From NCBI RefSeq assembly GCF_030406905.1, contig NZ_CP129137.1, forward strand, positions 6,355,501-6,419,500: a stretch of DNA of 64,000 bases, given 5' to 3'. The notes below the pieces were generated by a model, which was given only the letters and a program-made list of their open reading frames with translations, did no database searches and was not told the DNA's origin. Below, in pieces: positions 12,616-30,122 of the stretch. The position numbers were made by a program, and so were the translations under genes. Source of the DNA: Streptomyces sp. HUAS CB01. Its GTDB lineage: Bacteria > Actinomycetota > Actinomycetes > Streptomycetales > Streptomycetaceae. Position 1 is the first letter of the stretch. The number at the start of each line of letters is the position of its first letter.

Positions 12616-12656
12616 AGCGTAAGTACGCGCCCGAGAAAACGTCAACAGTTTGTTGA
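12616..12656 (-). promoter_or_regulatory. katA promoter with TCAACA-N3-TGTTGA operator
   Basis: Read leftward, a -35 TTGACG (12640-12645) and a -10 TACGCT (12616-12621) are spaced 18 bp. The perfect palindrome TCAACA-N3-TGTTGA (12642-12656) overlaps the -35. The element reads TTCAACAAACTGTTGACG on the coding strand, differing by one base from the element before uraD at 30081-30098. Binding there should block RNA polymerase, so a repressor is expected. Confidence 0.75.
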
Positions 12657-12671
12657 AGTGAAGGAGGTGAA

Positions 12672-12731
12672 TCCGGGCCGTGGCTGCGCTTGGGCGCGAC
12701 AGGACAGGTGTCAGCGCAGCCACGGCCCGGA
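12672..12731. terminator. 19-bp hairpin with 22-nt loop
   Basis: Arms 12672-12690 and 12713-12731 are perfectly complementary over 19 bp. The 22-nt loop is unusually long for a simple terminator. It lies 240 bp past the leftward glxR stop and just upstream of the katA promoter, so it could stop read-through into katA. Confidence 0.55.
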
Positions 12732-12811
12732 CGTGTGCGGGGCCGATGACGGCCCGGGACCGGGGAACCGCAGGGTGGGGCGGGGTGGGCGGACGGCCGC
12801 TTCGGCTGCTT

Positions 12812-12849
12812 CGGTGCCGATCGGGTTCGATCGGGTCCGATCGGCACCG
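12812..12849 (-). terminator. 13-bp hairpin downstream of glxR
   Basis: Arms 12812-12824 and 12837-12849 pair perfectly over 13 bp around a 12-nt loop, about 120 bp past the glxR stop. It probably terminates the hyi-glxR transcript together with the hairpin further on. Confidence 0.5.
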
Positions 12850-12970
12850 GGCGGGCGGATCCCCGGTCGGGTGGCGCCGGAGCGCGGGGGCGGGTGGGCC
12901 TCCGCCGACTGCCCCTCGCCGGACGGGCGGTTCTGGGAGGGCTTCTCCGGTCGGGCGGCCGGCGGGCGGG

Positions 12971-13897
12971 TCAGGCGACCGGCGAGCCCGACAGGCGCTC
13001 GACCGCGCGGAGCAGCGCCGAGTGGTCCAGGCCTCCGTCGCCCTGGGCGCGCAGGGACGCGACCAGCTGGGCGACGACGGCTCCGACCGGCAGCGCGGCA
13101 CCGACGTTCCGGGCGGCGTCGGTGACGATGCCCATGTCCTTGTGGTGCAGGTCGATCCGGAAGCCCGGCGCGAACTGGCGGTCGAGGAAGTTGTCCTTCT
13201 TGCGGGTCAGCACGGTGGAGCCGGCCAGCCCGCCGTTGAGGACGTCCAGTGCCGCCCGCAGGTCCACGCCGGACTTCTCGAGGAAGACGACGGCCTCGGC
13301 GCAGGCCTGGATGTTGACGGCGACGATCAGCTGGTTGGCGGCCTTCACCGTCTGGCCGGAGCCGTGCGGTCCGCACAGCACGATGGTCTTGCCCAGGGCC
13401 TCGAGGATCGGGCGGGCCTCGTCGAAGACGTCCTGCTCGCCGCCGACCATGATCGACAGTACGGCCTCCACGGCGCCGGCCTCGCCCCCGGAGACGGGGG
13501 CGTCCAGCACGCGGATTCCCTTGTCGGCGGCGTTCTTCGCCAGGTCGACGGAGGTCTGCGGGGTGATCGAGGACATGTCGATCAGCAGGGCGCCCCGCTT
13601 CGCGTTCTCCAGGATGCCGTCCGCGCCGTACGCGATGGCCTCCACCTGGGGCGAGGCCGGGACCATGGTGATCACGACGTCGGCGTCCCCGACGGCCTCG
13701 GCGATCGAGGCGGCGGCGGTGCCGCCGGCGGCCGCGAGACGGTCCAGCTTCTCCTGCTCCAGGGTGTAGCCGGTCACCCGGTAGCCCGCCTTGATCAGGT
13801 TCTCGGACATGGGCGAACCCATGATGCCGAGGCCGATCCACGCGATGGTGGGCAGGTCGGATCGGGAGGAGCCGGCGGAGTCTGCGAGGGTGCTCAT
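12971..13897 (-). CDS. glxR: 2-hydroxy-3-oxopropionate (tartronate semialdehyde) reductase
   Basis: A 308-residue beta-hydroxyacid dehydrogenase that reduces tartronate semialdehyde to glycerate in glyoxylate assimilation. The NAD(P)-binding motif is GLGIMG (22-27), the substrate signature is [11 protein letters not shown] (132-142) and the catalytic Lys is K185 in [16 protein letters not shown]-type ribosome binding bases precede the ATG. It lies 60 bp downstream of hyi in the same direction. The glyoxylate carboligase that usually completes the set is not in the window. Confidence 0.88.
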
Positions 13898-13956
13898 CGG
13901 GGTGCCTCTCTTGAAGCGGTGGTACGAAAGGGAGTCGGCGGGCCGCGGGCCGGATG

Positions 13957-14796
13957 TCAGTGCGCGGGCCGGGCCTTCTCGGGGAGCCAGTCGAAGGCGC
14001 GCGCGCTCGGACGGTCGCCGGCCTTGTACTCCAGGCCGACCCAGCCGTCGTAACCGGCCTTCCTCAGCCGGTCGAGCAGCTCCTCGAGGGGCAGCGAGCC
14101 GGTGCCCGGCGCGCCGCGGCCCGGGTTGTCCGCGATCTGCACATGGCCGGTCTTCGCCGCGTACGCGTCGATGGCGGCGGCGACGTCCTCGCCGTTCATC
14201 GACAGGTGGTAGATGTCGAGCAGGAACTTGGCGTTGCCGAGGCCGGTGGCGGCGTTGACCTGGTCCACGACCTCGATCGCGGAGGCCGCACTCACCAGCG
14301 GGTAGAGCGGCGACTCCGGCTTGTTCAGGGTCTCGACCAGCAGGATCGCGCCCACCTGCTCGGCCGCGTGGGCCGCCGTCACCAGGTTCTCCAGGGCGAG
14401 TTCGTCCTGGACCGCCGGGTCCACGCCCTCGACGCGGTTGCCGTACAGGGCGTTGAGCGCCTTGCAGCCCACCGACGCGGCGAAGTCCGCGGCCACGTCG
14501 ATGTTGGCGCGGAAGCGGTCCGACTCCTCACCGGGTACGGAGAGGGCGCCGCGGTCCGGGCCCGGCAGCCGCCCGGCGTAGAAGTTCAGGCCCACCAGCC
14601 GGGTGCCGGAGTTCCTCAGCGCCTTCCTGAGGTCGTCCAGTTCGCTCTGGTCGGGCGTGGGGGTGTCGATCCAGGGCCACCACAGCTCGACCGCCGTGAA
14701 GCCGGCCGCCGCGGCGGCCGCGGGGCGCTCCAGCAGCGGGAGTTCCGTGAAGAGGATCGACAGGTTCACATCGAAGCGCTGGTCCGTGTATCCCAT
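13957..14796 (-). CDS. hyi: Hydroxypyruvate isomerase (TIM-barrel)
   Basis: A 279-residue xylose-isomerase-like TIM barrel. It opens FDVNLSILFTELPLLERP and has AGFTAVELWWPW, the metal-ligand Glu in LLVETLNKPES, DIYHLSMNGED and the C-terminal GWVGLEYKAG. These match Hyi, which converts hydroxypyruvate and tartronate semialdehyde. It is first in a two-gene operon with glxR, behind a promoter with a GAAAC/GTTTC palindrome. Confidence 0.88.
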   Translation of the reverse strand: MGYTDQRFDVNLSILFTELPLLERPAAAAAAGFTAVELWWPWIDTPTPDQSELDDLRKALRNSGTRLVGLNFYAGRLPGPDRGALSVPGEESDRFRANIDVAADFAASVGCKALNALYGNRVEGVDPAVQDELALENLVTAAHAAEQVGAILLVETLNKPESPLYPLVSAASAIEVVDQVNAATGLGNAKFLLDIYHLSMNGEDVAAAIDAYAAKTGHVQIADNPGRGAPGTGSLPLEELLDRLRKAGYDGWVGLEYKAGDRPSARAFDWLPEKARPAH

Positions 14797-14811
14797 GAGG
14801 GGGTGCGCTCC

Positions 14812-14876
14812 TTCCGTATTGCGGAAACTCGTTTCTGCTTAATGGAAGATTGCCTGCAGTGGGGGAGAGCTGTCAA
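14812..14876 (-). promoter_or_regulatory. hyi-glxR promoter with inverted-repeat operators
   Basis: Read leftward, TTGACA (14871-14876) and CAATCT (14847-14852) form a -35/-10 pair with 18-bp spacing. Just downstream are two overlapping inverted repeats: GCnGAAACnnGTTTCnGC (14821-14838) and TTCCG-N5-CGGAA (14812-14826). Their form and position suit an IclR-family repressor such as the allantoin/glyoxylate regulator AllR. The identity of the regulator is inference. Confidence 0.6.
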
Positions 14877-15063
14877 GACCGGGCCGCGATCTGCCCGCGA
14901 TGCGGACCGCTTCCGGGCAGCGGCGGCCCGTTGGCGCCCGGCAGGCGAGGACGTCCCCGGCACGACGCGGCGGCCGGCTGCGTGCCAGAGCGCCCCCGGG
15001 CGGAGCGGGAGGGGCCGGGCAGCGCGTACGCGCCCCGTCCGGGCGGGAAGCGGGCACGGGAAA

Positions 15064-15121
15064 GCGCCCCCTGGGGGACGGTGACGGCCCTGCACGGCCG
15101 TCGCCGTCCCCCAGGGGGCGC
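15064..15121 (-). terminator. 26-bp hairpin terminator of the Mce operon
   Basis: Arms 15064-15089 and 15096-15121 pair over 26 bp with a single G-T wobble and a 6-nt loop. It lies 20 bp after the stop of the last Mce-operon gene and is the strongest hairpin I see in the window. Confidence 0.85.
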
Positions 15122-15140
15122 AGCGCTTCCTTCCCGGCGG

Positions 15141-16016
15141 TTACAGCGCGTCGACCGCGCTGACCTTCCACCCGCCGGGGGTCCGGGTGAGCTCCATCCG
15201 GACCCGGTTCAGATCCACCCGGGGCCCGTCGACACGGGTACTCCTCGTCACCTGGTTGACGAAGAGCAGGACCACGGCCCGGTCCGGTGAGGCCGACACC
15301 ACCGAGGCCGCGGGGCTGCCGCCGCCGGGCGGCGTCACCACCGAGGCCTTGACCACCCCCTGGTACTTCTTCGCCGTGGGTGCCACGACCTTCGTGGTCG
15401 TCCGGCGGTACTCCTCCAGGAACGGCCCGGTGAGATGGCCGCGGGCCGCGGCGAAGTCCCGGTCCAGATGCCGGTGGTCGTACGAGAGCACGGCCGGTGC
15501 CGCCTTCCGCGCCGCCGCCAGTGCCCCGGCCCGCCCCTCCTCCGCCTGCCGGCCGTCCGCGTACGCCGTGCCGAGCACGGCCGCGGCGATCAGCCCGGCG
15601 ACGGTGAGCACGGCGAGTACCGCGCAGATCAGCAGCCGGCGCCGCGGGGACCGCCGGCCGCCCGGGACGCCGTCGTCCTCCGCCGGGGCGCCGGCCGCAC
15701 GCGCGGCGTCCGGCTGCTCCCGGTCCCGCTCCACGCGGTCCGGCCCCCCACGGTCCGGCTCCTCCCAGTCGGGTGCCTCCCAGTCGGGCTCACTGCCCTC
15801 GGGCGGAGGGTCCTCGGCGCGCAGCGTCCGCCCGGACACCACACCGCCGGGACCGGCGGCGGGCTGTCCGGAGCCGTCGGTGCCGGGCGCTGCGCGCCGG
15901 CCGCCCCCGGTCTGCTGGGCCTGTTCGGCACGCTTGGCCGCCGCCCGGGCTGCGGCGGTCATGGAGCGCCGGGCGGGGGAGCCGGTGCCGCGGCCGCGGG
16001 TCGTCGTGTTCGCCAC
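15141..16016 (-). CDS. Mce-associated membrane protein (second copy)
   Basis: A 291-residue protein, GTG start with GAGGAG upstream. Residues 1-120 are disordered and rich in Ala, Gly, Glu and Pro with repeats of (A/E)PDWE. One membrane helix follows (LLICAVLAVLTVAGLIAAAVLG). An extracytoplasmic domain then has YDHRHLDRDFAAARGHLTGPF and VNQVTRSTRVDGPRVDLNRV, as in Mce-associated (Mas) proteins that accompany and stabilise Mce complexes. It is the last gene of the operon and paralogous to the preceding gene. Confidence 0.8.
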   Translation of the reverse strand: MANTTTRGRGTGSPARRSMTAAARAAAKRAEQAQQTGGGRRAAPGTDGSGQPAAGPGGVVSGRTLRAEDPPPEGSEPDWEAPDWEEPDRGGPDRVERDREQPDAARAAGAPAEDDGVPGGRRSPRRRLLICAVLAVLTVAGLIAAAVLGTAYADGRQAEEGRAGALAAARKAAPAVLSYDHRHLDRDFAAARGHLTGPFLEEYRRTTTKVVAPTAKKYQGVVKASVVTPPGGGSPAASVVSASPDRAVVLLFVNQVTRSTRVDGPRVDLNRVRMELTRTPGGWKVSAVDAL

Positions 16017-16063
16017 GGGGATTCTCCTCACTGGTGGTCGTACTGGCGTGACGGGGGCGGGGG

Positions 16064-16990
16064 TCAGCCGACGAACTCCACGTTCGACGTCAGCCAGCGG
16101 CCGCCCTCGAGCACGAGATCGAGCTGGAGCCGGTAGGTACGGGACTGGCCCTCCGGTGCGGCCGAGTTGGTCACCTTGCTGTCGGCGACGACCAGCACCC
16201 GGGCGGTGCGCTCGTCGGAACGGGCGATGCCCGCCTCCAGGACCTGCCCTTCGGAGACCGACTTGTTCGCGGCGACGAGCTTGGTCAACTCCGCCGTCTG
16301 CGCAGCGAACTGCTCCTTGAACTCGCCCGCCGCGCCCTTGAGGACGTTCGCGCTGTCCCGTTCGTAGTGCCGGTAGTCGAGCGAGGTGAAGTTCAGCGCC
16401 GACCGGCGGGCGGCGGCCAAAATGTCCTGTCGGCGCTGCTCGTCGGCGTGCTGCTCGTGCACCCGGAAACCGAGCCACAGGGACAGGGCCGTCGTCACGA
16501 CGGTCGCCGACGCGAGCAGGGCGGCCACCGCCCTGCCGTGGCGGGCGGCGGTGACCGCCCGCGCCCCGAGCCGGCGGATCGCCCGCACTGCTCCCGGCAC
16601 GGACCCCCTGCGCACACCGCTCGCCGCGCGGGTGGGGGCCGCGGCGCCGGGCGCCGGGCCCGTCTCCCTGACGTCGGCTGATGGGCCGGCCTCCCGGCCC
16701 CCGGCCGCCGGGTCCGTCTCCCGGGCGTCGCCCGCGGGGTCGGTCTCCCGGCCCTCGGTCACCGGGCCGGTCTCCCTGACCTCGCCCGCCGGGCCCGTCG
16801 CTCGGCCACGGACCGCAGGGGCCGTCCTCTCGCGCCCGCCTGCCGGGTCCTTCGCTCCGCCACGGACCGCGGGCCCCGTCGTCCCGCCCCCGCCCACCGG
16901 ATCCGCGCCCCCGATCACCGTGACCGCCGAGGCGTCCTCCGGGCCGGGCGCCGTCACGTCCGTCATGCCATCGGTCCCACGAGCAGCCAT
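16064..16990 (-). CDS. Mce-associated membrane protein (first copy)
   Basis: A 308-residue protein. The first 140 residues are a low-complexity segment of repeated ETGPxxx/ETDPAG-type units. A membrane helix (VAALLASATVVTTALSLWLGF) and a Mas-type domain follow (LDYRHYERDSANVLKGAAGEF, YRLQLDLVLEGGRWLTSNVEFVG). The ATG at 16990 has a perfect AGGAG 8 nt upstream inside the last Mce gene. The ATG at 16966 overlaps that gene's stop as ATGA, like the other junctions of this operon, and is a real alternative start. Confidence 0.8.
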   Translation of the reverse strand: MAARGTDGMTDVTAPGPEDASAVTVIGGADPVGGGGTTGPAVRGGAKDPAGGRERTAPAVRGRATGPAGEVRETGPVTEGRETDPAGDARETDPAAGGREAGPSADVRETGPAPGAAAPTRAASGVRRGSVPGAVRAIRRLGARAVTAARHGRAVAALLASATVVTTALSLWLGFRVHEQHADEQRRQDILAAARRSALNFTSLDYRHYERDSANVLKGAAGEFKEQFAAQTAELTKLVAANKSVSEGQVLEAGIARSDERTARVLVVADSKVTNSAAPEGQSRTYRLQLDLVLEGGRWLTSNVEFVG

Positions 16991-19526: not shown

Positions 19527-20686
19527 GCGCGGGCCTCCAGGATTCCGCCGAGCGTCCGGTCGACCGCGCCGGTCCCGGACACCGCCCGCGTGCCGGCAGG
19601 CCCGAGCTCCGGCAGGGAGTCGAACAGTTTCCGCAGGTCCGCGCAGTCCTTGCTCTTCGCGTCGCCGGTCGTCCGCAGCAGCGAGCAGAGCAGCGCCGCC
19701 GGATCCTGCGGATGGTCGGGGTTGTTGCGGGTGTCGAGCGTCCCGGCGGACGGGTTGTAGGCGTTCTGCAGGTTGGACAGTCCGGCCGGGGCGACCTCCA
19801 GCAGCTCCGCGAGCGCGGCGCGCTGGGTGACCAGCACCTTGGTGACCTTGCTCAGACCCTCCACGTTCGACGCCAGCGACCGCTTGTTCGCCCGTACGAA
19901 GTCGGACACGTCGGCGAGCGCCACTCCCAGGTGCCGCAGCGCCGCCGCGAGGTCCTTGCGCTCCGCGGCGAGCTGCCCGGCCACCTTCGCGAGGCTGTCG
20001 TTGAACGACCGGACGTTCTTGTCGTCGGCGGCCAGCGCCGCGGTGAACACCTGGAGGTTGCGGACGGTGGAGAACAGGTCCTGCCGGCCGTCGGACAGCG
20101 TGGTCACCGCCAGGGAGAGGTCCTCCACCGACTGGTGGATCGCGCCGCCCTGCCCTTCGAGGTTGTCCGCGCTCACACCCAGCAGCCGCGACAGCGCGCC
20201 CTTGTCGTTCGCGCCGCGCGGACCGAGCGCCTCCGACGTCGTGTGGAGACTGTCGAAGACCCGGTCCAGCTCCACCGGTACGGCCGTGCGCCGCTCCGGG
20301 ATGACAGCGCCGCTGCGCATCACCGCGCCGTTCCGGTACACGGGCAGCAGCTGCACGTAACGGTCGCTGACCACCGAGGAGTTGATGATCGCGGCCTTGG
20401 CCGCGGCGGGGACCTTCCGCCCTGAGTCCCACTCCAGTACTACCCGCACCCGGCGTCCCTCCGGGGTGATCTCCTTGACCTCGCCGATCCGGACGCCCAG
20501 CACCCTGACGTCGGATCCGGGATAGATGCCGACCGTCCGCGGGAAGTACGCGGTGACTCGGACCGGATCTTCCCGCGGCCACAGGACCACGGCGCTCGCG
20601 GCGGCCAGCGCGAGGGCGGTCACCAGCGCGACCCTGCGCAGCACGGGTGTGCGCGGGACGCGTATGCGCGACAGGGGCGCTTTCAC
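19523..20686 (-). CDS. mceD: Mce family protein, fourth in operon (MceD-like)
   Basis: A 387-residue Mce protein. Its N-terminal helix (LVTALALAAASAVVLWP) is followed by VRVTAYFPRTVGIYPGSDVRVLGVRIGEV, the Mce domain, then a long helical needle region and two cysteines near LLCSLLRTTGDAKSKDCADL. The GTG start at 20686 overlaps the upstream stop as GTGA. In family terms it is one of six non-identical subunits of the transport tube. Confidence 0.88.
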   Translation of the reverse strand: MKAPLSRIRVPRTPVLRRVALVTALALAAASAVVLWPREDPVRVTAYFPRTVGIYPGSDVRVLGVRIGEVKEITPEGRRVRVVLEWDSGRKVPAAAKAAIINSSVVSDRYVQLLPVYRNGAVMRSGAVIPERRTAVPVELDRVFDSLHTTSEALGPRGANDKGALSRLLGVSADNLEGQGGAIHQSVEDLSLAVTTLSDGRQDLFSTVRNLQVFTAALAADDKNVRSFNDSLAKVAGQLAAERKDLAAALRHLGVALADVSDFVRANKRSLASNVEGLSKVTKVLVTQRAALAELLEVAPAGLSNLQNAYNPSAGTLDTRNNPDHPQDPAALLCSLLRTTGDAKSKDCADLRKLFDSLPELGPAGTRAVSGTGAVDRTLGGILEARA

Positions 20687-21687
20687 GAGGGACCTCCCGT
20701 CCGCGGGACCACCGGAGTGGCGACCATGTTCTGGATGTAGCTGTCGAACCATCGGCCGTTGCCGAGGGTGTTGGTGAAGACGCGCACGTAGGGCGCGAGC
20801 AGCCGCACGCTGCGGTCGAGAGCGGCCTGGTTGCGTTCGAGCATGCCGACCACCTGGTTCAGGCCCTTGAGCGCCGGCCCGATCTCCTTGCTGTTGTCCT
20901 CGACCAGCCCCGACAGCTGGATCCCCAGCGCGGCGGAGCTCTTGAGCAGGGCGTGGATCGCCGCCCGCCGCCGGGAGATCTCCTGGAACAACGCGTCACC
21001 GTCCTTCACCAGAACGGAGAACTCGCGGGATCGCTCGGCGAGGACCCCGCTGACGCCGTTGGCGTGGTCGAGGAGTTCGCGCAGCGCCCGGTCGCGGGAG
21101 GCGACCGTGCGGGAGATCTGCGACAGGCCCTTCACCGACTCCCGTACCTCGGCGGGGGAGTCCTCGAAGGTGGTGGAGATCGTGTTCAGCGCCGTGGCCA
21201 GCCGCTGGGTGTCGACCTTCTCCGTGGTCGTGGTCAGATCGCTGAAGGCGGTCACGACGTCGTAGGCGGGCGTGGTCCGGTTCAGCGGGATCTCGCTGCC
21301 CGGCCTCAGCCGGCCCGGGCCCTCGGGCCTCAGCGCCAGGTACTTGGCGCCCAGGATCGTCTTGACGCGGATGGCCGCACCCGTCCTGGTGCCGAAGGCC
21401 GGCTCGCCCTTGACCCGGAAGACCACCCTGACGTGGTCCCCGTCCAGATCCACCTCGTCGACCTTGCCGACCTTCACCCCGGCGATGCGGACCTCGTCGC
21501 CGGGCTTCAGGCCGCCCGCCTCCGAGAACGCCGCGGTGTACGTCTCGCCGTCGCCGATCAGCGGCAGGTCGTCGGCGTTGAACGCGGCGACGGCCAGCAG
21601 CGCCAGCGTGGTGAGGCCGACCGCCCCGATGGTCACGGGATTCCGCTCCCGGAACGGGATCATGCGCATCCTCAGGCGTCCCTTCAT
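20683..21687 (-). CDS. mceC: Mce family protein, third in operon (MceC-like)
   Basis: A 334-residue Mce protein with a short basic N-terminus, membrane helix (VTIGAVGLTTLALLAVAAFN) and Mce domain (YTAAFSEAGGLKPGDEVRIAGVKVGKVDEV, GAKYLALRPEGPG). A helical region ends in FDSYIQNMVATPVVPRTGGPS. The ATG at 21687 overlaps the previous stop as ATGA. An ATG just upstream (21693) and one inside (21663) are weaker choices. Confidence 0.88.
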   Translation of the reverse strand: MKGRLRMRMIPFRERNPVTIGAVGLTTLALLAVAAFNADDLPLIGDGETYTAAFSEAGGLKPGDEVRIAGVKVGKVDEVDLDGDHVRVVFRVKGEPAFGTRTGAAIRVKTILGAKYLALRPEGPGRLRPGSEIPLNRTTPAYDVVTAFSDLTTTTEKVDTQRLATALNTISTTFEDSPAEVRESVKGLSQISRTVASRDRALRELLDHANGVSGVLAERSREFSVLVKDGDALFQEISRRRAAIHALLKSSAALGIQLSGLVEDNSKEIGPALKGLNQVVGMLERNQAALDRSVRLLAPYVRVFTNTLGNGRWFDSYIQNMVATPVVPRTGGPS

Positions 21688-22727
21688 GCGCACCTCGCCC
21701 GGGCGACATGGAGCTCCGGTGTGATGACCTCCCTGGTCTTCGGCAGCACCACCCGGCCGTCGAAGTCACAGAGGTAGAAGTTGAACCAGGAGCCGTACGA
21801 GGCGGTCCCCGTCAGCTTGTTGAGCTTGTTCGGCAGCCGCTTCAGCACGCCCTCCACGGTCTTCTCGTTGTCGTTCAGCGTTCCGGTGAGGTCCCGCAGC
21901 TCCGCGATGTCGTCGCGCAGCGGAGGGCGGGCGTCCTCCAGCAGGCCCGAGGTCGCCTCCGTCAGCTCGTTGATGTTCACCAGCGACTCGCCGATCGGCT
22001 TGCGGTCGGCGGAGAGACCGGAGACCACCCGCTGGAGCTGCTTGATCAGCCCGGAGAACCGGGCGCCGCGCTCGTCCAGGGTCGTCAGCACCGTGTTGAG
22101 GTTGTCGATCACCGACCCGATCAGCTCGTCGCGGTCGGCGAGGGTGCTGGTGAGCGAAGCGGTGTGCGCGAGCAGGCTGTTCACCGTGCCGCCCTCGCCC
22201 TGGAGCGTCTTGATGATCTCGGTGGCGAGCTGGTTGACGTCCTCGGGGCTGAGCGCAGCGAACAGCGGCTTGAAACCGTTGAGCAGCGCGTTCAGATCGA
22301 GCGCGGGCTGGGTGCGGGAGAGGGGGATCAGGCCGCCGGCCGGCAGCCTCGTGCCGTCGCCGGGGCCCTCCGTCAGCGCGATGTACCGGGAGCCGACCAG
22401 ATTGCGGTAGCGGATCACCGCGCCCGTGCCGGCGTACAGCGGGCGGTTCTCCGTCACCGTGAACGTGACCTCCGCCAGTGTCCGGTCCCGTATGCCGATC
22501 TCCCGCACCTCCCCGACCCGCACCCCCGCGACGCGGATGTCGTCGCCCTCCTCCAGGCCGGTGACATCGCTGAACACGGCCCGATAGGTGTGCTCGGGGG
22601 CGAAGGAGAAGGTGGCGATGGTCGCCGCGAGCAGCGCCGTCGCGAGCACGGTCACCACCGCGAAGAGGCTGAACTTGATCAGCGGCGACGCGGTCTCGCC
22701 CGCCCGTCGCAAACGCACCGACCTCAT
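21684..22727 (-). CDS. mceB: Mce family protein, second in operon (MceB-like)
   Basis: A 347-residue Mce protein. The helix IKFSLFAVVTVLATALLAATIATF precedes the Mce domain (YRAVFSDVTGLEEGDDIRVAGVRVGEV, RYIALTEGPGDGTRLPAGGLIPLSRTQPALDL). The SYGSWFNFYLC block near the end is typical of MceB subunits. Coupled at both ends by ATGA overlaps. Confidence 0.9.
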   Translation of the reverse strand: MRSVRLRRAGETASPLIKFSLFAVVTVLATALLAATIATFSFAPEHTYRAVFSDVTGLEEGDDIRVAGVRVGEVREIGIRDRTLAEVTFTVTENRPLYAGTGAVIRYRNLVGSRYIALTEGPGDGTRLPAGGLIPLSRTQPALDLNALLNGFKPLFAALSPEDVNQLATEIIKTLQGEGGTVNSLLAHTASLTSTLADRDELIGSVIDNLNTVLTTLDERGARFSGLIKQLQRVVSGLSADRKPIGESLVNINELTEATSGLLEDARPPLRDDIAELRDLTGTLNDNEKTVEGVLKRLPNKLNKLTGTASYGSWFNFYLCDFDGRVVLPKTREVITPELHVARARCA

Positions 22728-23965
22728 GCGACGCTCACCGCCGTCCCCCGGGCCATCGGGCCGAACAGCAGGGTGGCCACCGCGGGCACCTCGTCCGCGG
22801 GCACACCCATGACGGGCGCGACGAGCGACCCGACGGCGCGCTGCTCGGCCCCGGTCGCGGACACCGGCCTGCCCGCCGCTCCGCCCGGGGTGACCCTGGC
22901 GGTGCCGTCGTCCAGCTTCACGTCCGGTGCCGGGACCTGCGGCCGGGGCATGCCGTGGCAGTTGGGTCCTGAGCGCTCCCCCCAGCGGGGTTCCTCGCCG
23001 GGCCGGTACCCGGGCCGCGGACGGACGAACTCGAGGGTGATGTGCATCTTCCCGCCTCTGAAGGTCTGTTCCGACGCGGCCTCCTGCCTCACCAGCCCGT
23101 CCAGGAGGCAGGGATACTCCGGCGAGTAGCGGGCGAACAGCGCCAGCGTGGGGCGCGAGACCCGGCCCAGGGTGATCAGCCGCTCCCCGTTGTCGTCCAG
23201 GAACCCGTCCGCGGTCCCCGCGACGCCGGCCGTCGCGGTGAACATGGCGGCCAGCTGCTCCTGCTTCGCCACGACGGTGCGGCTGGTGGTGAGGGTGTTC
23301 CGCAGGATCCTCATCAGGTCCGGCGCGGCGTCCCCGTACACCTCGGCCACGTCCGCGAACCGGGAGATGTCCTCCTCGAGCGACGGCAGATGGGGATTGA
23401 GCCGGCGGAGGTACCCCTCGACCCGCGTGAGGTTGTCGCCGATCCGGTCGCCCCGGCCCTCCAGCGCGGTGGAGAACGCCGAGAGCGTGGCGTTGAGTTC
23501 GGCGGGGCGGACGGTGCGCAGCAGCGGCAGCAGATCGTTCATCAGCCGCTGCACCTCGATACCGGCCGCGGTGCGGTCCTGGGTGATGACGTCACCGGCG
23601 CGGATCGACCGCGCCGGGGGGCCGCCGGGGGCCGCCACCAGGTCGACGTACTTCTCCCCGAACAGCGTCTTGGGCAGCAGCCTCGCCCGGACGTCGGCCG
23701 GGATGCGCGGGACGTGCTCCGGGGCGAGCGCGAGGTCGAGCGTTGCCTTCTCCCCGTCGGCCCGCACCCCGCGCACCTCGCCGACCAGCAGCCCGCGCAG
23801 CTTGACGTCGGCCTGCGGCTCCAGCTGGTTGCCGAGGACGCCGGTCTCCAGCGTCACCCGGACGACGGGGGTGAAAGCCTTCCGGTACACGGCCACGGAC
23901 AGCGACAGCAGCAGCGCCAGCACGGCGATGAAGACGATTCCGTGGATCCTCCGTCGGACACGCAT
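22724..23965 (-). CDS. mceA: Mce family protein, first in operon (MceA-like)
   Basis: A 413-residue Mce protein, immediately after the two permease genes. N-terminal helix IVFIAVLALLLSLSVAVYRKAF, then VRVTLETGVLGNQLEPQADVKLRGLLVGEV and LFGEKYVDLV (Mce domain). Helical region and a C-terminal part with CHGMPRPQVPAPDVKLDDG, similar to MceA ends. The start is 5 nt after the second permease stop; the end overlaps mceB. Confidence 0.9.
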   Translation of the reverse strand: MRVRRRIHGIVFIAVLALLLSLSVAVYRKAFTPVVRVTLETGVLGNQLEPQADVKLRGLLVGEVRGVRADGEKATLDLALAPEHVPRIPADVRARLLPKTLFGEKYVDLVAAPGGPPARSIRAGDVITQDRTAAGIEVQRLMNDLLPLLRTVRPAELNATLSAFSTALEGRGDRIGDNLTRVEGYLRRLNPHLPSLEEDISRFADVAEVYGDAAPDLMRILRNTLTTSRTVVAKQEQLAAMFTATAGVAGTADGFLDDNGERLITLGRVSRPTLALFARYSPEYPCLLDGLVRQEAASEQTFRGGKMHITLEFVRPRPGYRPGEEPRWGERSGPNCHGMPRPQVPAPDVKLDDGTARVTPGGAAGRPVSATGAEQRAVGSLVAPVMGVPADEVPAVATLLFGPMARGTAVSVA

Positions 23966-23970
23966 CGGCC

Positions 23971-24798
23971 CTACCCCGCAATCCGTACGGTCGTGCTGGC
24001 GCCCCAGATCGCCAGGCTGAGGAAGAAGTCCAGGACGTTGATGGCGACGATGGAGGTGCGCACGGCACGGCCGACCGCGACGCCGACGCCGGCCGGGCCG
24101 CCGCTCGCGTGGTAGCCGTAGTAGCAGTGCACCAGGATGATCACGACGGCGAAGACGATCACCTTGCCGAACGACCACAGCACGTCGACCGGCGGCAGGT
24201 ACTGCTGGAAGTAGTGGTCGTACGTGCCGGCCGACTGGCCGTGGTAGCCGGTCGTGATCGTCCGGGCGGCGAAGTACGAGGACAGCAGCCCGATCACGTA
24301 GAGCGGGACGACGGCGACGAACCCGGCGACCATCCGGGTCGTCACCAGGAACGGCAGCGACGGGACGCCCATCACCTCCAGGGCGTCGGTCTCCTCGCTG
24401 ATCCGCATCGCGCCGAGCTGGGCGGTGAAGCCGGCCCCGACGGTCGCCGACAGCGCCAGGCCGGCCACCAGCGGGGCGATCTCCCGGGTGTTGAAGTACG
24501 CGGAGAGGAACGCGACGAAGTTGGAGGTGCCGAGCTGGTTGAGGGCGGCGTACCCCTGCAGGCCCACCTCGGTGCCGGTGAAGAAGGACAGGAACGCGAT
24601 CACGCCCACGGTCCCGCCGACGACGGCGAGCGCGCCGCGGCCGAAGCTGACCTCGGCGAGCAGCCGCAGGACCTCCTTCCGGTAGCGGCGCAGGGTGCGT
24701 CCGGTCCAGGCCAGCGAGCGTCCGTAGAAGGACAGTTGGGCGCCCAGCTCCTCCAGGGAGCGCAGCGGTCGCCCCACGAGACGGTCGATCAGCGCCAC
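23971..24798 (-). CDS. yrbE1B: MlaE/YrbE-type permease, second
   Basis: A 275-residue permease with about five membrane segments (for example VVGGTVGVIAFLSFFTGTEVG and VAVVPLYVIGLLSSYFAA). The cytoplasmic coupling block is MRISEETDALEVMGVPSLPFLVTTRMVAG, matching the EExDALxxMG signature of MlaE. It forms the membrane core with the first permease and is driven by the ATPase. The GTG start is 2 nt after the first permease stop. Confidence 0.92.
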   Translation of the reverse strand: MALIDRLVGRPLRSLEELGAQLSFYGRSLAWTGRTLRRYRKEVLRLLAEVSFGRGALAVVGGTVGVIAFLSFFTGTEVGLQGYAALNQLGTSNFVAFLSAYFNTREIAPLVAGLALSATVGAGFTAQLGAMRISEETDALEVMGVPSLPFLVTTRMVAGFVAVVPLYVIGLLSSYFAARTITTGYHGQSAGTYDHYFQQYLPPVDVLWSFGKVIVFAVVIILVHCYYGYHASGGPAGVGVAVGRAVRTSIVAINVLDFFLSLAIWGASTTVRIAG

Positions 24799-24800
24799 GG

Positions 24801-25571
24801 TCAGCCCTTCTGCGGAACGACTTGGAAGTACACGGCGGTCATCACGAAGTTCGTGACGAACAGCAACATGAAGGTGATGACCACCGACTGGTTCACCGCG
24901 TCGCCGACGCCCTTCGGACCGCCCTTGGCCGTCAGCCCCTTGTACGAGGCGACGATGGCCGCGATCGCCCCGAACACCAGCGCCTTCAGCTCGGCCGCCC
25001 ACAGGTCGGACAGCTGGGCGAGCGTGGTGAACGACGCCAGGTAGGCGCCGGGAGTGCCGTTCTGCAGGACGACGTTGAAGAAGTAGCCGCCCGCGACCCC
25101 GACCACCGACACCAGGCCGTTGAGCAGCACCGCGACCACCATCGACGCCAGCACCCGGGGGACCACCAGACGGTGGATCGGGTCGATGCCCAGTACCTGC
25201 ATCGCGTCGATCTCCTCGCGGATCTTGCGCGCGCCCAGGTCCGCGCAGATCGCGGTGCCGCCGGCGCCCGCGATCAGCAGGGCCGTCACGATCGGCGACG
25301 CCTCCCGCAGCACGGCGAGCACCGAGGCCGCGCCCGAGAAGGACTGGGCGCCGAGCTGCCGGGTCAGACTGCCGATCTGCAGCGCGATCACCGCGCCGAA
25401 GGGGATCGAGACCAGCGCCGTCGGCAGGATCGTGACACTCGCGATGAACCAGGCCTGCTGGATGAACTCCCGTATCTGGAAGGGCCGTCGGGGCAGCGTC
25501 CTCAGGACGTCCAGCGCCATCGCGAACAGGCTGCCGGAGTGCCGGAGCGCCCCGGTGGGGGAGAGGCTCAT
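24801..25571 (-). CDS. yrbE1A: MlaE/YrbE-type permease, first
   Basis: A 256-residue MlaE-family permease with the coupling block ARKIREEIDAMQVLGIDPIHRLVVPRVLA and hydrophobic segments LIAGAGGTAICADLG and MVVAVLLNGLVSVVGVAGGYFFN. Its ATG overlaps the ATPase stop as ATGA. It heads the run of transport genes that continues into six mce genes. Confidence 0.92.
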   Translation of the reverse strand: MSLSPTGALRHSGSLFAMALDVLRTLPRRPFQIREFIQQAWFIASVTILPTALVSIPFGAVIALQIGSLTRQLGAQSFSGAASVLAVLREASPIVTALLIAGAGGTAICADLGARKIREEIDAMQVLGIDPIHRLVVPRVLASMVVAVLLNGLVSVVGVAGGYFFNVVLQNGTPGAYLASFTTLAQLSDLWAAELKALVFGAIAAIVASYKGLTAKGGPKGVGDAVNQSVVITFMLLFVTNFVMTAVYFQVVPQKG

Positions 25572-26518
25572 GCTCCTGCCACCTCCTTGCGTCCGCGCAG
25601 CTCCGCCTCGCGCCGTGCGATGGCCTCCCAGCGGGGCGGCCGGGTGATGCCCGGGCTCGGCAGCAGTCGGGGGGTCATCCCGTGGGCTCCCCCGTCGTCC
25701 CCGGCTCCCGTGCCCCGGTCCAACTGCGCGAGCTCCCGCTCGACCTGGGCGGCGTCCTTCTCCTCCGCCATGCCGATGGGCCCCTGCATCCGGCCGTGGA
25801 GGAACTGCCGCACGACGGGCTCGTCACTGGTCAGCAGCCGCTCGCGGGGACCGAACATCACCAGCTCCCGGCGGAACAGCAGCCCGATGTTGTCCGGGAC
25901 CTGGCGGGCGGAGGCGATGTCGTGGGTGACGATGAGGAAGGTGGCGTCGATCTGCGCGTTGAGATCGACGATCAGCTGGTTGAGATAGGCCACCCGTACC
26001 GGGTCGAGTCCCGAGTCCGGCTCGTCGAAGAGGATGATCTCCGGGTCGAGCACCAGGGCGCGGGCCAGCCCGGCCCGCTTGCGCATCCCGCCGGAGATCT
26101 CGCCGGGCAGCTTCTCCTCGGCGCCGATCAGACCGACCATGTCCATCTTCTCGAGGACGGTCCGCCGGATCTCGGTCTCGGACCTGCGGGTGTGCTCGCG
26201 CAGAGGGAAGGCGATGTTGTCGTACAGATTCATCGACCCGAACAGAGCGCCGTCCTGGAAGAGGACGCCGAACAGTTTCCGCACCTCGTACAGGTCGTGC
26301 TCGCGCAGCCGGGTGATGTCCCGGTCGGCGATCCGCACCGACCCCCGGTCGGGTCGGAGCAGCCCGACGAGCGTCTTGAGGAACACCGACTTCCCCGTGC
26401 CCGAAGGGCCGAGCATGACCGAGATCTCCCCGGCGGGCAGCGTCAGCGACACGTCCTGCCAGATGATCTGCCGGCCGAAGGACTTGGTCAGTCCCTCCAC
26501 GCAGATCTCGACACCCAT
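25568..26518 (-). CDS. mkl: Mce-system ABC transporter ATPase
   Basis: A 316-residue ATPase of the Mkl/MlaF type that powers lipid transport. Walker A is GPSGTGKS, the signature is SGGMRKRAGLARAL, Walker B is IILFDEPDSGLDP and the switch His is in VTHDI. Residues after about 240 form the C-terminal extension seen in actinobacterial Mkl proteins. The ATG at 26518 has GAAGGG 8 nt upstream; a GTG three codons earlier is possible. It overlaps yrbE1A, so the whole system through the Mas proteins looks like one operon. Confidence 0.93.
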   Translation of the reverse strand: MGVEICVEGLTKSFGRQIIWQDVSLTLPAGEISVMLGPSGTGKSVFLKTLVGLLRPDRGSVRIADRDITRLREHDLYEVRKLFGVLFQDGALFGSMNLYDNIAFPLREHTRRSETEIRRTVLEKMDMVGLIGAEEKLPGEISGGMRKRAGLARALVLDPEIILFDEPDSGLDPVRVAYLNQLIVDLNAQIDATFLIVTHDIASARQVPDNIGLLFRRELVMFGPRERLLTSDEPVVRQFLHGRMQGPIGMAEEKDAAQVERELAQLDRGTGAGDDGGAHGMTPRLLPSPGITRPPRWEAIARREAELRGRKEVAGA

Positions 26519-26882
26519 CCGGTACACCCTTCAGCCGTTGAGCAGCTCCGACACCTGCTCTACGGGGAGGGGCGGGGCGTCCGTCGCGGCGAGGACGAGA
26601 TTTTTTCGCCGCAGGGCGGAGGGGTGCTCAGGGTCGCGCCGCGGTGCGTGCGCGCCGGGACGGGCGAACGGCTACGGAGGGGCCCGCCCGCGGTGCGTGC
26701 GCGCCGGGACGGGCGAACGGCTACGGAGGGGCCCGCCCGCGGTGCGGGAACGGCCCGGCGGGCGCGTTCCCGCGCGCCGGGGGTTGCGGGCGGGGCCTGG
26801 TCCGCGGGTACGGGAGGGTGCGGGGTGGGGCCAGGGGGAGTGGTGTCGCCTCCGGGACCGGCGGGTGCGGCCCGGCCCGGGG
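26519..26882. other. Intergenic region upstream of the Mce operon
   Basis: About 360 bases between the sigma factor stop and the ATPase start. It contains an A/T tract (GATTTTTTCG at about 26600), a 49-bp tandem repeat (26642-26739) and otherwise GC-rich sequence. It must hold the Mce operon promoter unless that operon is read through from the sigma gene. No -35/-10 pair stands out. Confidence 0.5.
26642..26746. repeat. 49-bp tandem repeat, two copies plus 7 bp
   Basis: Two identical 49-bp units at 26642-26690 and 26691-26739, followed by the first 7 bases of a third. Each unit starts CGGTGCGTGCGCGCC and ends GGCCCGCCCG. It lies in the leader region of the Mce operon. It may arise from replication slippage or hold a duplicated protein site. 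Confidence 0.9.
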
Positions 26883-28004
26883 TCAGGGCGAGGGCGTCTT
26901 CCCCGGGAGCGACGGTGCGGACGACGGCTCCGACGGCAGGACCCGGTCAGGGACGCTGAGGGCCGGAGCGTCCGCGGTGGGAGCTTCGGCAACGGCCTGC
27001 CCGGTCACGGCGGGTGTGGGCGGGGTGTCCGGAGCGGTCGGCAGCCCGGGCAGCGCCGGCAGATCGGAGACCGCGGGCACCTTCGGCACCTTCGGTACGT
27101 CGGGGACCGACGGCACCGCGGGCGCGGGCACCGGCGGCAACGAGGGCAGCGCCGGGTCCGGCAGGAGCAGCGGCGCGACCGGTCCGGCGCCGGTCGGCCC
27201 GTCCGGCGTGGGCGTCACGGGGCCGGAGGAGGCCGTCGCCCCGTCGGCGCCGCGTGCCGCGTCGTCGGCCGCCGGCCACACGTCGGCCGTCTCGGACGTG
27301 GCCGGGGCCGGTCCCGGAGTGTCCCCCTCGTAGGCGTACGGCACGACGAAACCGGCGACCGCCAGTGTCGCCGCGGTCGACGCCGCGACCACCAGATGAG
27401 CGTGGCCGCCCGTCCGGGGCCGGCGCCCCAGCAGCCACAGGACCAGCCCCAGCGTGCCCGCGAGCGACGCGCGCAGCGTCCGCCGCGCCCGGGCCAGCAG
27501 CGACTCCACCGTCCGGTAGCTCAGCCCCATCTCCCGGGCGACCTCACCGACGTCGAGGTCCTCGGACTTCAGCCGCAGTGCCTCGGCCTGCCGCGCGGGC
27601 AGCTCACCGCTGCGCACGGCCAGCCACCTGGCCTCGGCCCGGTCGCAGACGACCTCGTCGACGGGCGCCGGCCGCGGCGCCACCAGCCGCGGGCTGCTGC
27701 GCACCTCCGCCTCCCGGTTGACCTGCCGGTACCGGTCGACGCACAGCCGCATCGTCACCGTCGTCAGCCACGCACCCAGCCGCTCGTCGTCGAGATGCGG
27801 GTTCTCCGCCGCGCGCAGCATCGCCTCGTGCACGGCGTCCTCGGCGTCCTCCGGGCTCATCGAACGCCGGCGCGCCACCTTGAGCAGGTCCTCGCGGTGG
27901 CTCCAGGCGCGCTGCCAGCGTTCCTGCGACCGCTCGCGCGGCGGGCCGTACGCCGCCCGATTCTCCAGCCCGCCCGAATGCGTCGCATGCGTGTCCGTCG
28001 CCAT
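26883..28004 (-). CDS. ECF-type sigma factor with membrane anchor and Pro-rich outer tail
   Basis: A 373-residue protein. The sigma-2 region lies at about 32-95 (SPEDAEDAVHEAMLRAAENP, LGAWLTTVTMRLCVDRYRQ). The sigma-4 region lies at about 132-180 (LPARQAEALRLKSEDLDVGEVAREMGLSYRTVESLLARARRTLR). A membrane segment follows (about 201-223, HLVVAASTAATLAVAGFVV). The last 145 residues are rich in Pro, Ala, Val and Thr with repeated PxVPxV units, probably outside the membrane. The sigma factor is thus tied to the membrane by its own chain. It lies directly upstream of the Mce operon and may control envelope or lipid functions. Confidence 0.85.
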   Translation of the reverse strand: MATDTHATHSGGLENRAAYGPPRERSQERWQRAWSHREDLLKVARRRSMSPEDAEDAVHEAMLRAAENPHLDDERLGAWLTTVTMRLCVDRYRQVNREAEVRSSPRLVAPRPAPVDEVVCDRAEARWLAVRSGELPARQAEALRLKSEDLDVGEVAREMGLSYRTVESLLARARRTLRASLAGTLGLVLWLLGRRPRTGGHAHLVVAASTAATLAVAGFVVPYAYEGDTPGPAPATSETADVWPAADDAARGADGATASSGPVTPTPDGPTGAGPVAPLLLPDPALPSLPPVPAPAVPSVPDVPKVPKVPAVSDLPALPGLPTAPDTPPTPAVTGQAVAEAPTADAPALSVPDRVLPSEPSSAPSLPGKTPSP

Positions 28005-28059
28005 GAGGGCCCCTTCGCACTCACCCCGCCGGTCCCGTCCTGCCCGGCGGGGGGCGACA

Positions 28060-29172
28060 TTACCGCCCGGTATCGAGGGTTGTGGAGGGGGTGCGGCGCA
28101 TCGAGTCCGTACCGTTGCCGACCAGCGGATCCGTGCCCGAGGGCACTCCGCCGCCGGGCAGCGGTGTCACGGGCCCCGGGACGGGCGGCACCGGGCCGGC
28201 GGGGCCCGCGGGTCCCTGCGCGCCCCCCTCGGCGGGCCGGGGATCGGGGGCCGCGGTGGACCCCGGGGGCCGGGTGCCCTCCCCTCCGCCCGGTCCGTCC
28301 GGGCGCGCTGAAGCGGACGGCTGGGACGCGGCGGGCCGGGGCGTACGGGACGGCGCCGGCTGCGGACGGGGAGCGGCCGGACCCGCCGCTCCCAGGTCCG
28401 GCACCACCAGGTGTCCTTCCAGGAAGTAGGCGTACCAGGCCCGCACCGTGCGCAGATAGGCCCTCGAGCGGTTGTACCCGAGGACCGCGCGGTCCAGGTC
28501 GCCCGGGTCGGACAGGTCCCGTCCGCCCGCGCACAGATACCGGCCCGCGGCGAGCGCCGCGTCGTAGACGTTGGACGGGTCCGCGCGGCCGTCGCCGTTG
28601 CCGTCGGCGCCCCAGACCGCCCAGGTCGACGGGATGAACTGCATCGGCCCGACGGCGCGGTCGTACACCGTGTCCCCGTCGTACGCGCCGCCGTCCGTGT
28701 CCGTGATCCGCGCGAAGCCGTTGCCGTCCAGCCGCGGCCCGAGGATCGGCGGAGACGCCGTGCCGTCCGGGCCCACCCGGCCGCCGCGCGCCTGCCCGGA
28801 CTCCACCTGGCCGATGGCGGCGAGCAGCTGCCGGCGGAGCCCGCAGCCGGGCGTGCTGCGCGACAGTTCCGCTTCGGCCCGCAGGTAGGCGGCGAAGACG
28901 GTGGAGGGGAGCGTGCCCCCGGTCGTCACCGCGCTCCCGTCGACCGCGCCTTCCGGGGCCATGCCCTCGCGCCCGCGCGGCCGCAGCGGCGGTAGTTCCG
29001 TGCGGTAGGCGGAGTCGCCCGAGACGCTCGGTCCGGGCGCCGCCGGTACCCCCTCCGTGCCCGCGGTCGCCGAGGGCACGGCCCCCTGCGCCTGCGAGGC
29101 GGTCAGCACCGCCATCGCCGCCGCCGCGACCGCCGTCCCCCGCACCGCTCTGCGTCCGTGACCCGTCAACAC
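28060..29172 (-). CDS. Secreted lytic transglycosylase with Pro-rich tail
   Basis: A 370-residue exported protein, GTG start with AGGGAGGGG upstream and a signal peptide ending near QAQGA (residue 30). The transglycosylase domain (about 85-265) has the catalytic Glu124 in AAIGQVESGQARGG, VGPMQFIPSTWAVWGADGNGDG and VLGYNRSRAYLRTV. These match soluble lytic murein transglycosylases. The last 100 residues are a Pro/Gly/Ala linker, perhaps spanning the wall. It is divergent from the urate regulator genes and shares its direction with the sigma factor gene. Confidence 0.88.
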   Translation of the reverse strand: MLTGHGRRAVRGTAVAAAAMAVLTASQAQGAVPSATAGTEGVPAAPGPSVSGDSAYRTELPPLRPRGREGMAPEGAVDGSAVTTGGTLPSTVFAAYLRAEAELSRSTPGCGLRRQLLAAIGQVESGQARGGRVGPDGTASPPILGPRLDGNGFARITDTDGGAYDGDTVYDRAVGPMQFIPSTWAVWGADGNGDGRADPSNVYDAALAAGRYLCAGGRDLSDPGDLDRAVLGYNRSRAYLRTVRAWYAYFLEGHLVVPDLGAAGPAAPRPQPAPSRTPRPAASQPSASARPDGPGGGEGTRPPGSTAAPDPRPAEGGAQGPAGPAGPVPPVPGPVTPLPGGGVPSGTDPLVGNGTDSMRRTPSTTLDTGR

Positions 29173-29347
29173 GGCCCACCCCTCCCTCGTCGTGCCGCCG
29201 CACCGTTCCGACCGGGGGTGCGGCTTCCGTCATCGGCTCTACGCGGGACGCGGGCGGATCCGTCGCACGGCGGCCGCTTCTTTCCGGTGTCGCTGTATTC
29301 CGGCACCGCCCGGCGGACGCCCGTGCGGGCGGGCTTAACGTGGGGGC

Positions 29348-29641
29348 ATGCGATTGCGAGTGGAGTTCACGACAGAACCCTTCGACCTCGACGAGGCCCC
29401 GGCCCATGCGGTGGTCGCCCGCGAGGTCATCCAGGCCGCCGACCTGGACGCCGTGGACGTGGGCCCCTTCGGCAACACGGCCGAGGGCGGCGCGGACGCC
29501 GTGCTCACCGCAGTCGACTCGCTGCTGCGCCGGGCGTTGGGCGCCGGGGCCACCCGGGTCTCGCTGCAGGTCAACGTGATCGGGCAGCACGACGCCGCGC
29601 CGGCGGTCCGTGACGGCGCGGACGAGGAGGGGGAGCAGTGA
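29348..29641 (+). CDS. Small conserved protein, DUF77/thiamine-binding-like
   Basis: A 97-residue protein with the pattern of a ferredoxin-like alpha/beta fold: MRLRVEFTTEPFD, VVAREVIQAADLDAVDVGPFGNTAEG, AVLTAVDSLLRRALGAGATRVSLQVNV. The G-(N/T)-xxEG turn and the closing GATRVSLQVNV strand resemble DUF77 (MTH1187) thiamine-binding proteins. The match is by pattern only. Its stop overlaps the start of the next gene as GTGA, so it is probably a partner of that regulator. Confidence 0.6.
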   Translation: MRLRVEFTTEPFDLDEAPAHAVVAREVIQAADLDAVDVGPFGNTAEGGADAVLTAVDSLLRRALGAGATRVSLQVNVIGQHDAAPAVRDGADEEGEQ

Positions 29642-30015
29642 CCGAGCCCGGAGACCACCCTCTGGTCAACGCCGTGAAGCCGCTGGTGGACGCGATGGGC
29701 GCGGAGATCCTCCGCCCCGAGCAGGCCCAGGCGGACGATGTCGTCCTCTCCTGGGAGGGCGCCGAGGTGCTGGCCGTGCGGCTGCCGCAGCTGTCCGACT
29801 CGCTGGACCACATCCTGGCCGCCATGGAGCGGCGTCACGGCATGCCGCTGTCGGCCCTCGACCGCAAGGCGAAGCAGTCGGTGGTGCGGACGCTGGAGGC
29901 ACGCGGGGCCTTCTCCGTACGGCACGGGGTGGAGACGGTGGCGAGCGCCCTCGGGGTCAGCCGGTTCACCGTCTACAACTACCTGAACAGGGAGAACGCC
30001 GCCAAGGGTGACTAG
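29638..30015 (+). CDS. YheO-like helix-turn-helix regulator
   Basis: A 125-residue protein. The C-terminal block SALDRKAKQSVVRTLEARG and FSVRHGVETVASALGVSRFTVYNYL (about 75-117) is the HTH found at the end of YheO/DauR-type regulators. The usual PAS-like N-terminal domain is short or divergent. It lies just upstream of the urate operon, separated by a T-tract terminator, and is a candidate regulator for it. Candidate binding sites are the palindrome at 30082-30096 and its twin before katA. Confidence 0.75.
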   Translation: MTEPGDHPLVNAVKPLVDAMGAEILRPEQAQADDVVLSWEGAEVLAVRLPQLSDSLDHILAAMERRHGMPLSALDRKAKQSVVRTLEARGAFSVRHGVETVASALGVSRFTVYNYLNRENAAKGD

Positions 30016-30034
30016 GTGGCCACGATCCGTACGC

Positions 30035-30067
30035 AGCCGCCGTCCATATGTCGGGACGGCGGCTTTT
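30035..30067 (+). terminator. Rho-independent terminator after the HTH gene
   Basis: An 11-bp stem (30035-30045 with 30054-30064), 8-nt loop and TTTT run make a classic intrinsic terminator. It separates the regulator operon from the uraD promoter just downstream. Confidence 0.85.
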
Positions 30068-30081
30068 CTGTCCACGAAGTT

Positions 30082-30122
30082 TCAACAAAGTGTTGACGGG
30101 CTGTCGGGGGAAGGCGTTAGCT
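30082..30122 (+). promoter_or_regulatory. Urate operon promoter with TCAACA-N3-TGTTGA operator
   Basis: The palindrome TCAACA-N3-TGTTGA (30082-30096) overlaps a TTGACG -35 (30093-30098). A weak -10 TTAGCT (30117-30122) follows at 18 bp. The 18-bp element TTCAACAAAGTGTTGACG differs by a single base from the katA element, with the same promoter geometry. A common repressor is the simplest reading. Confidence 0.75.

Follow-up and report, generated by a model that had tools for sequence, protein, structure and literature searches.

Regulators of several kinds come close to the system considered here. The IclR-family protein AllR reportedly controls an allantoin regulon in Streptomyces coelicolor. 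Regulators of the YheO/DauR type combine a PAS-like N-terminal sensor domain with an HTH_22 domain, and the widespread DUF77/MTH1187-fold family has, to our knowledge, no settled role. Urate repressors of the HucR type, which belong to the MarR family, are encoded beside uricase and have their operator in the uricase promoter (PMC5487221). The locus examined here lies in a window of 64,000 nucleotides, by which we mean the whole stretch of DNA analysed, from Streptomyces sp. HUAS CB01 (NZ_CP129137.1, positions 6,355,501 to 6,419,500). In this window the catalase gene katA and the urate operon uraD-uraH-uaZ, some 17 kb apart, share a palindromic promoter site, and a pair of overlapping genes, one encoding a DUF77/Thiamine_BP protein and the other an HTH_22 protein, precedes the urate operon.

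Here we show that this site, the katA/uraD box, is conserved across Streptomyces and recurs at further genes of purine breakdown, and that its presence beside urate genes follows that of the HTH_22 gene. From these sequence comparisons we judge, with a probability of about three in four, that the two sites are operators of a single regulon leading from urate to ammonia and glyoxylate and including disposal of hydrogen peroxide (H2O2), bound by the HTH_22 protein acting with the DUF77 protein. Among the listed titles and abstract openings of the open-access literature we recognised none that dealt with the box or with a urate regulator of HTH_22/DUF77 type, which does not prove its absence from print.

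Results

Twin promoter sites belong to a larger set of predicted targets

The sequence-only reading had proposed near-identical operators at katA and uraD, and both are where it placed them (Table 1): they agree at 17 of 18 positions, each has a perfect TCAACA-N3-TGTTGA core and contains the -35 hexamer TTGACG, and the spacer to the putative -10 element is 18 bp in katA and uraD alike. The uraD -10, TTAGCT, was read from the sequence and is absent from the promoter scan's own list. Within the window, a scan allowing up to two mismatches gave 3 matches against 0.29 expected, a number reached in 2/100 shuffles; the third match is a one-mismatch copy at 22085, within the open reading frame (ORF) 21684-22727.

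Across the whole genome (8,098,788 bases) the perfect core occurs only three times, at the promoters of katA, uraD and ureA, the last copy (C1:1001027) preceding the conserved start of the urease gamma gene by about 60 bases. With up to two mismatches to the core there are 185 places, compared with 74 for the reversed pattern. A degenerate 17-mer matches exactly at four places, all of them pathway promoters (ureA, katA, uraD and allB), and with up to one mismatch at 23 places, compared with 6 for the reversed control. Upstream of allB-alc (allantoinase, allantoicase), from which an IclR gene diverges, a near-perfect box, TTCAACAGTTCGTTGAA, is placed just after the predicted -10. Malate synthase, aceB, is preceded by ATCAACAAACCATTGAA, with the -35 inside the box (TTGAAC, 17 bp, TACTAT), and the flanks of six further allR loci (L243, L244, L247-L250) also contain a 17-mer of the aceB type, with aceB itself not checked there. 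The allB and aceB copies are weaker than the katA, uraD and ureA cores. Because further copies stand at ureA, allB and aceB, the katA and uraD sites are predicted to belong to a regulon and not to a pair: of the proposed katA-uraD link, the shared box stands and the exclusive relation does not. The predicted targets serve to oxidise urate, dispose of peroxide, cleave allantoin, hydrolyse urea and use glyoxylate; they span the route from urate to ammonia and glyoxylate, with catalase in addition.

The box is conserved in Streptomyces

Conservation was scored at one mismatch from TTCAACAN3TGTTGAA in 80 named Streptomyces uricase loci, the best-matching ones from the scan and biased to near relatives; for katA, this set was enlarged by 30 catalase loci found when 121 family genomes were searched. 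The box was present in 80/80 uraD upstream regions and in 74/86 katA upstream regions, and this shared conservation at both promoters speaks for the joint control of catalase and urate breakdown that had been suggested from the two sites. In the aligned promoters both arms are near invariant, the arm distal to the -35 being conserved as well as the -35 arm, and the spacer is variable; the left flank at uraD is partly conserved too. A TANNNT element follows at 17-18 bp in 55/55 boxed katA promoters of the named loci. Among 30 allR loci, 24 were boxed at up to two mismatches; adjacent allB was not seen in three of the six unboxed ones (L267, L270 and L271, the others being L257, L268 and L269).

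Presence of the box follows the HTH_22 gene

The HTH_22 protein (125 amino acids) scores 73.5 bits for PF13309 against a gathering score of 29.6. No domain other than HTH_22 was found in it, and in particular not the PAS-like N-terminal domain that marks YheO-type regulators. Its gene overlaps that of the DUF77 protein by four bases (GTGA). The DUF77 protein and the N-terminal domain of the fused regulators described below are homologous; one of these regulators scores 41.2 for PF01910, above the cut-off of 24.9. The regulator is probably a two-gene unit. A sequence search of the PDB gave nothing for the HTH_22 protein and, for the DUF77 protein, one match (E 0.38) to a ribosomal protein; a search for the box near full-length YheO-like paralogues returned nothing usable.

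Of the 22 genus members in a class-wide sample of 246 genomes, 20 had a strong match to the HTH_22 protein, and the same 20 contained an exact match to the 17-mer. The other two, G068 and G086, each had one degenerate-pattern match, with the spacer of a coincidental palindrome in MarR coding sequence (see below), whose context was not fetched. Among 36 chosen genomes, an exact TTCAACAN3TGTTGAC stood beside uraD at 26/27 HTH_22 loci of other genera in the family. At the exception, G022 (L288), HTH_22 and uraD are present, but neither a DUF77 neighbour nor a box was detected. Both data sets were available for 32 family genomes, which, where related, do not count as independent. With [TG]TCAACAN3TGTTGA[AC] as the definition of a box, it was found in 26/27 with HTH_22 and 0/5 without it (Fisher 3e-5); sorted by AllR, the same genomes were boxed in 22/25 and 4/7 cases (Fisher p 0.10). 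The box, then, does not follow AllR. An explanation by AllR alone was rejected on this double dissociation, and the IclR candidate that the sequence-only reading had listed for binding tests does not fit the katA/uraD box.

In one genome, G008, the box has gone with the regulator while the urate operon stays: uraD-uraH-uaZ, allB, alc, aceB and allR are kept within the 39 kb fetched, with no HTH_22 match and no box better than three mismatches in that stretch; one degenerate match, GTCAACGGGCCGTTGAA, lies elsewhere. In G130, HTH_22 is split over two frames (frameshifted) and the box is altered by one base.

Fused regulators accompany the box outside the family

Outside the family the two domains may form one protein. 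G205 (family f33) encodes a single 190-amino-acid protein with DUF77 and HTH_22 domains, followed by TTCAACAAACTGTTGACG and then by uricase. Of 120 listed homologues of the fusion, with names that include Phycicoccus, Pedococcus, Knoellia, Marmoricola and Amycolatopsis, 114 had both Pfam domains and 6 HTH_22 only. Among 394 genomes of the class, the best out-of-family matches were fused genes in G205, G445 (same genus as G205), G489 and G500, together with a split pair in G446; weaker HTH_22/DUF77 matches lie outside this set. At all five loci (four fused, one split) the box stands between regulator and urate genes, four copies being exact to TTCAACAN3TGTTGAC and one having a single mismatch (0/2000 Markov shuffles per region). 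Box and regulator occur together at urate genes in five actinobacterial families, own family included. The HTH product at 29638, put forward earlier as a candidate repressor, is accordingly backed as regulator by co-occurrence, natural losses and fused homologues.

Exact 17-mers were present in ten class genomes outside the family, at a urate gene only in G205. The nine other loci had no match to the purine-gene queries; the site was coding in G373 and G356, lay between ORFs in G336 and G206, and had no gene by the ORF filter in G260, G221, G190, G163 and G351. A second exact 17-mer in G205 (L329:4849) precedes a gene pair for a DUF3311 protein and a sodium:solute symporter and not a known purine gene; the pair is a candidate regulon transporter.

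An AlphaFold (AF2) model of the fusion had a mean predicted local distance difference test score (pLDDT) of 78.9 and a predicted template modelling score (pTM) of 0.50. Its N-terminal domain is confident, the linker (87-112) is of low confidence and the C-terminal part is helical; the best PDB matches of the N-terminal part were DUF77/MTH1187 proteins (1yqh, 1lxn, 2eky).

A second box of AllR type

A different, 15-bp box of TTCC type is found at gcl (TTCCGTATTACGGAA), hyi (TTCCGCAATACGGAA) and allB (TTCCACTCTGTGGAA), and this IclR-like 15-mer is probably the AllR box. The idea of one motif for all purine genes fails on gcl and hyi, which carry the 15-bp box. An AllR-type box (up to two mismatches) was present in 49/55 boxed katA promoters of the named loci, versus 1/55 shuffled sequences. 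Because both box types stand at most boxed katA promoters, two regulators probably act on catalase in the majority of these species. No AllR-type match better than three mismatches was seen in the 80 uraD promoters, and no clear AllR-type box was found at the window's own katA. A second regulator, probably AllR, would use these boxes, which differ from the katA/uraD box and stand at gcl, hyi and allB as well as in most of the katA promoters examined from Streptomyces.

Census of perfect cores

The perfect core was found in 40/41 genus genomes, one to five times each, with 0 or 1 for the reversed control, among the matches listed. A census of 73 listed places in 26 genomes, counting identical 100-base contexts once (L408 and L413 dropped), assigned 25 to uraD, 15 to katA (one, L230, within a catalase tblastn match), 6 to ureA (two inside an N-terminal extension of the query ORF and two, L225 and L240, assigned by eye) and 2 to allB. 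The uraD site was seen in 25/26 census genomes; for the 26th (G121) one of five places was listed.

Several other places recur. In eight Streptomyces census genomes, a cyclophilin-like gene (PF04126) flanked by cydA and hisC has a perfect box 9-27 bases before it (positions include L223:1578, L224:1540, L229:1550, L231:1578, L233:1563 and L234:1517); we know of no purine role for this gene. A perfect palindrome also occurs within conserved MarR-family coding sequence in many Streptomyces (L222, L226, L238, L187); it is probably a codon coincidence, which inflates naive motif counts. Coding places in the census fell inside this MarR gene (12) or an LCP-like gene (2). A boxed DUF6986 aldolase-like gene (L236:1557-2837) has a similar-looking protein in the G205 urate cluster (L330:5223-6479) and is possibly a glyoxylate-side enzyme. 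Of the two remaining places, L232 and L434, the former (L232:1519, G152) is a perfect palindrome directly upstream of an AMP-binding (adenylation) gene and may be either chance or another target.

Genes of the two clusters

Features of the window are collected in Table 1. The start of uraD was picked from its domain match and a Shine-Dalgarno-like CGGAGG, and the uricase is a 99% match to that of S. wuyuanensis. No MarR-family gene lies immediately beside the urate operon, whose neighbours are the HTH_22 gene upstream and an amidohydrolase gene downstream; no scan for MarR genes reached beyond these neighbours. The DNA between katA-glxR-hyi and uraD-uraH-uaZ holds a run of minus-strand ORFs (20683-26527), of which ORF 22724-24178 matches the MCE family, and near the regulon genes an ECF-like protein of 373 amino acids, with domains for sigma-70 regions 2 and 4, is encoded at 26883-28004.

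Table 1. Positions of genes and predicted control elements in the window
Feature	Position	Strand	Remark
katA, catalase	11107..12570	minus	PF00199 E 4e-187
Putative katA -10, TACGCT	12616..12621	minus	18 bp from -35
Operator box at katA, TTCAACAAACTGTTGACG (putative)	12640..12657	minus	covers -35 TTGACG (12640-12645)
glxR, tartronate semialdehyde (2-hydroxy-3-oxopropionate) reductase	12971..13897	minus	TIGR01505 above cut-off
hyi, hydroxypyruvate isomerase-like	13957..14796	minus	PF01261; TIGR03234 300.5 bits, below 353.45 cut-off
IclR/AllR-type 15-mer at hyi, TTCCGCAATACGGAA	14812..14826	minus	from sequence; AllR assignment inferred
DUF77/Thiamine_BP protein, proposed sensor subunit	29348..29641	plus	PF01910 23.7 bits, cut-off 24.9
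HTH_22 (YheO C-terminal type) protein, proposed DNA-binding subunit	29638..30015	plus	PF13309 E 1.4e-20
Terminator-like hairpin and T run, 9-bp perfect arms	30037..30069	plus	between HTH_22 gene and uraD promoter
Operator box at uraD, TTCAACAAAGTGTTGACG (putative)	30081..30098	plus	covers -35 TTGACG (30093-30098)
Putative uraD-operon -10, TTAGCT	30117..30122	plus	18 bp from -35; weak consensus match
uraD, OHCU decarboxylase	30171..30683	plus	PF09349, PRK13798
uraH, hydroxyisourate hydrolase	30680..31069	plus	TIGR02962
uaZ, urate oxidase	31076..32023	plus	TIGR03383
8-oxoguanine deaminase-type amidohydrolase, downstream of uaZ	32294..33685	plus	NF006055 637.9 bits, cut-off 532

Discussion

Urate oxidase produces H2O2, and the proposed regulon would couple the conversion of urate with the disposal of this peroxide. 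The box, TTCAACA-N3-TGTTGAA/C, would be bound by the HTH_22 protein together with the DUF77/Thiamine_BP protein, whose ferredoxin-like fold would sense a metabolite of the purine pathway and free the HTH_22 part from the DNA. The placement of the box suggests repressor-type action, because it lies over the -35 of katA, uraD and aceB or, at allB, just past the predicted -10. Sensing probably falls to the DUF77 part, because it is fused to or overlaps with HTH_22 and because the box is missing in G022, the only genome in which HTH_22 was found with no DUF77. More broadly, there is perhaps an even chance that this pair represents an actinobacterial factor family, a DUF77/MTH1187-fold sensor joined to HTH_22, fused in several families and split in Streptomycetaceae, that runs a urate-to-ammonia regulon together with peroxide defence.

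It is unlikely that some other, unlinked transcription factor binds the box while the HTH_22/DUF77 pair travels with the urate operon simply by linkage. Such an arrangement would fit the unboxed promoter of the pair and the boxes before some non-purine genes; the co-occurrence of box and regulator at urate genes in five actinobacterial families argues against it, as does the loss of the box both in G008, with a urate operon and no HTH_22, and in G022, with HTH_22 and no DUF77. We consider it very unlikely that AllR (L019:6775-7581) binds the katA/uraD box besides its own. Its gene is divergent from allB, whose promoter has both boxes, and both also stand in 49/55 katA promoters, yet the two boxes are unlike in sequence and length (15 versus 17 bp), G010, G011, G017 and G034 are boxed with no AllR orthologue (no match above about 44% identity), G008, G012 and G025 have AllR but no canonical box, and the Fisher test separates HTH_22 from AllR.

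That the shared sequence is merely an extended -35 promoter element and no operator is highly improbable: the overlap with the -35 hexamer at katA, uraD and aceB would be expected of such an element, but the allB box sits past the predicted -10, the far arm is conserved like the -35 arm around a variable spacer, and 8.1 Mb of genome hold just 3 perfect copies. We give even less credence to a peroxide sensor of Fur/PerR or CatR type that ties uricase to oxidative stress through the box. It would explain katA as a target beside an H2O2-yielding uricase; urease and allantoinase are predicted targets as well, yet make no peroxide, and the two other catalase genes found in the genome have no perfect box, although no search was aimed at a peroxide regulator.

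Several observations weigh against control of the box by the HTH_22/DUF77 pair, or against the extent of the regulon. Twelve of the 86 katA orthologues have no good box (seven with three mismatches, five with five to seven), and the allB loci of G047, G015 and G023 are unboxed despite HTH_22. Of the five genomes lacking HTH_22, only G008 is shown to keep the urate operon: urate genes were not seen in the fetched allR flanks of G012 and G025, which for that reason provide no test of the link between regulator and box, and G018 and G043 were not looked at. In the census, 25/73 places are off the named targets (8 cyclophilin-like, 14 coding, 1 DUF6986, 2 other). In the window's own genome, aceB is the only one examined of the 19 inexact matches to the degenerate 17-mer, leaving 18 others; the promoter scan gave no clear -10 for ureA, and the upstream region of the regulator pair itself yielded no box.

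Should control by the HTH_22/DUF77 pair be borne out, a specific regulator, a sharply defined operator and a list of targets would be predicted for urate use in a large group of soil bacteria, the wiring of catalase to purine breakdown would be accounted for, and the DUF77/UPF0045 fold would gain a role in metabolite sensing for transcription.

Set beside the described systems, the locus has the closest parallels with AllR in the IclR gene divergent from allB and in the TTCC-type boxes at gcl, hyi, allB and many katA promoters; unlike that regulon, the katA/uraD box has another half-site and length, sits at uraD and ureA, and tracks HTH_22. With HucR systems it shares a uricase gene that has an operator in its promoter and a regulator gene adjoining it, whereas the candidate regulator here consists of HTH_22 and a DUF77 domain and has several unlinked targets. 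The C-terminal HTH_22 domain (PF13309) is that of the YheO/DauR type, but the partner or fused domain is DUF77/Thiamine_BP. Finally, the MTH1187/UPF0045/DUF77 chains in the PDB (1yqh, 1lxn and 2eky) are single domains of about 96-104 residues, whereas here the domain is fused to, or coupled in an operon with, a DNA-binding domain.

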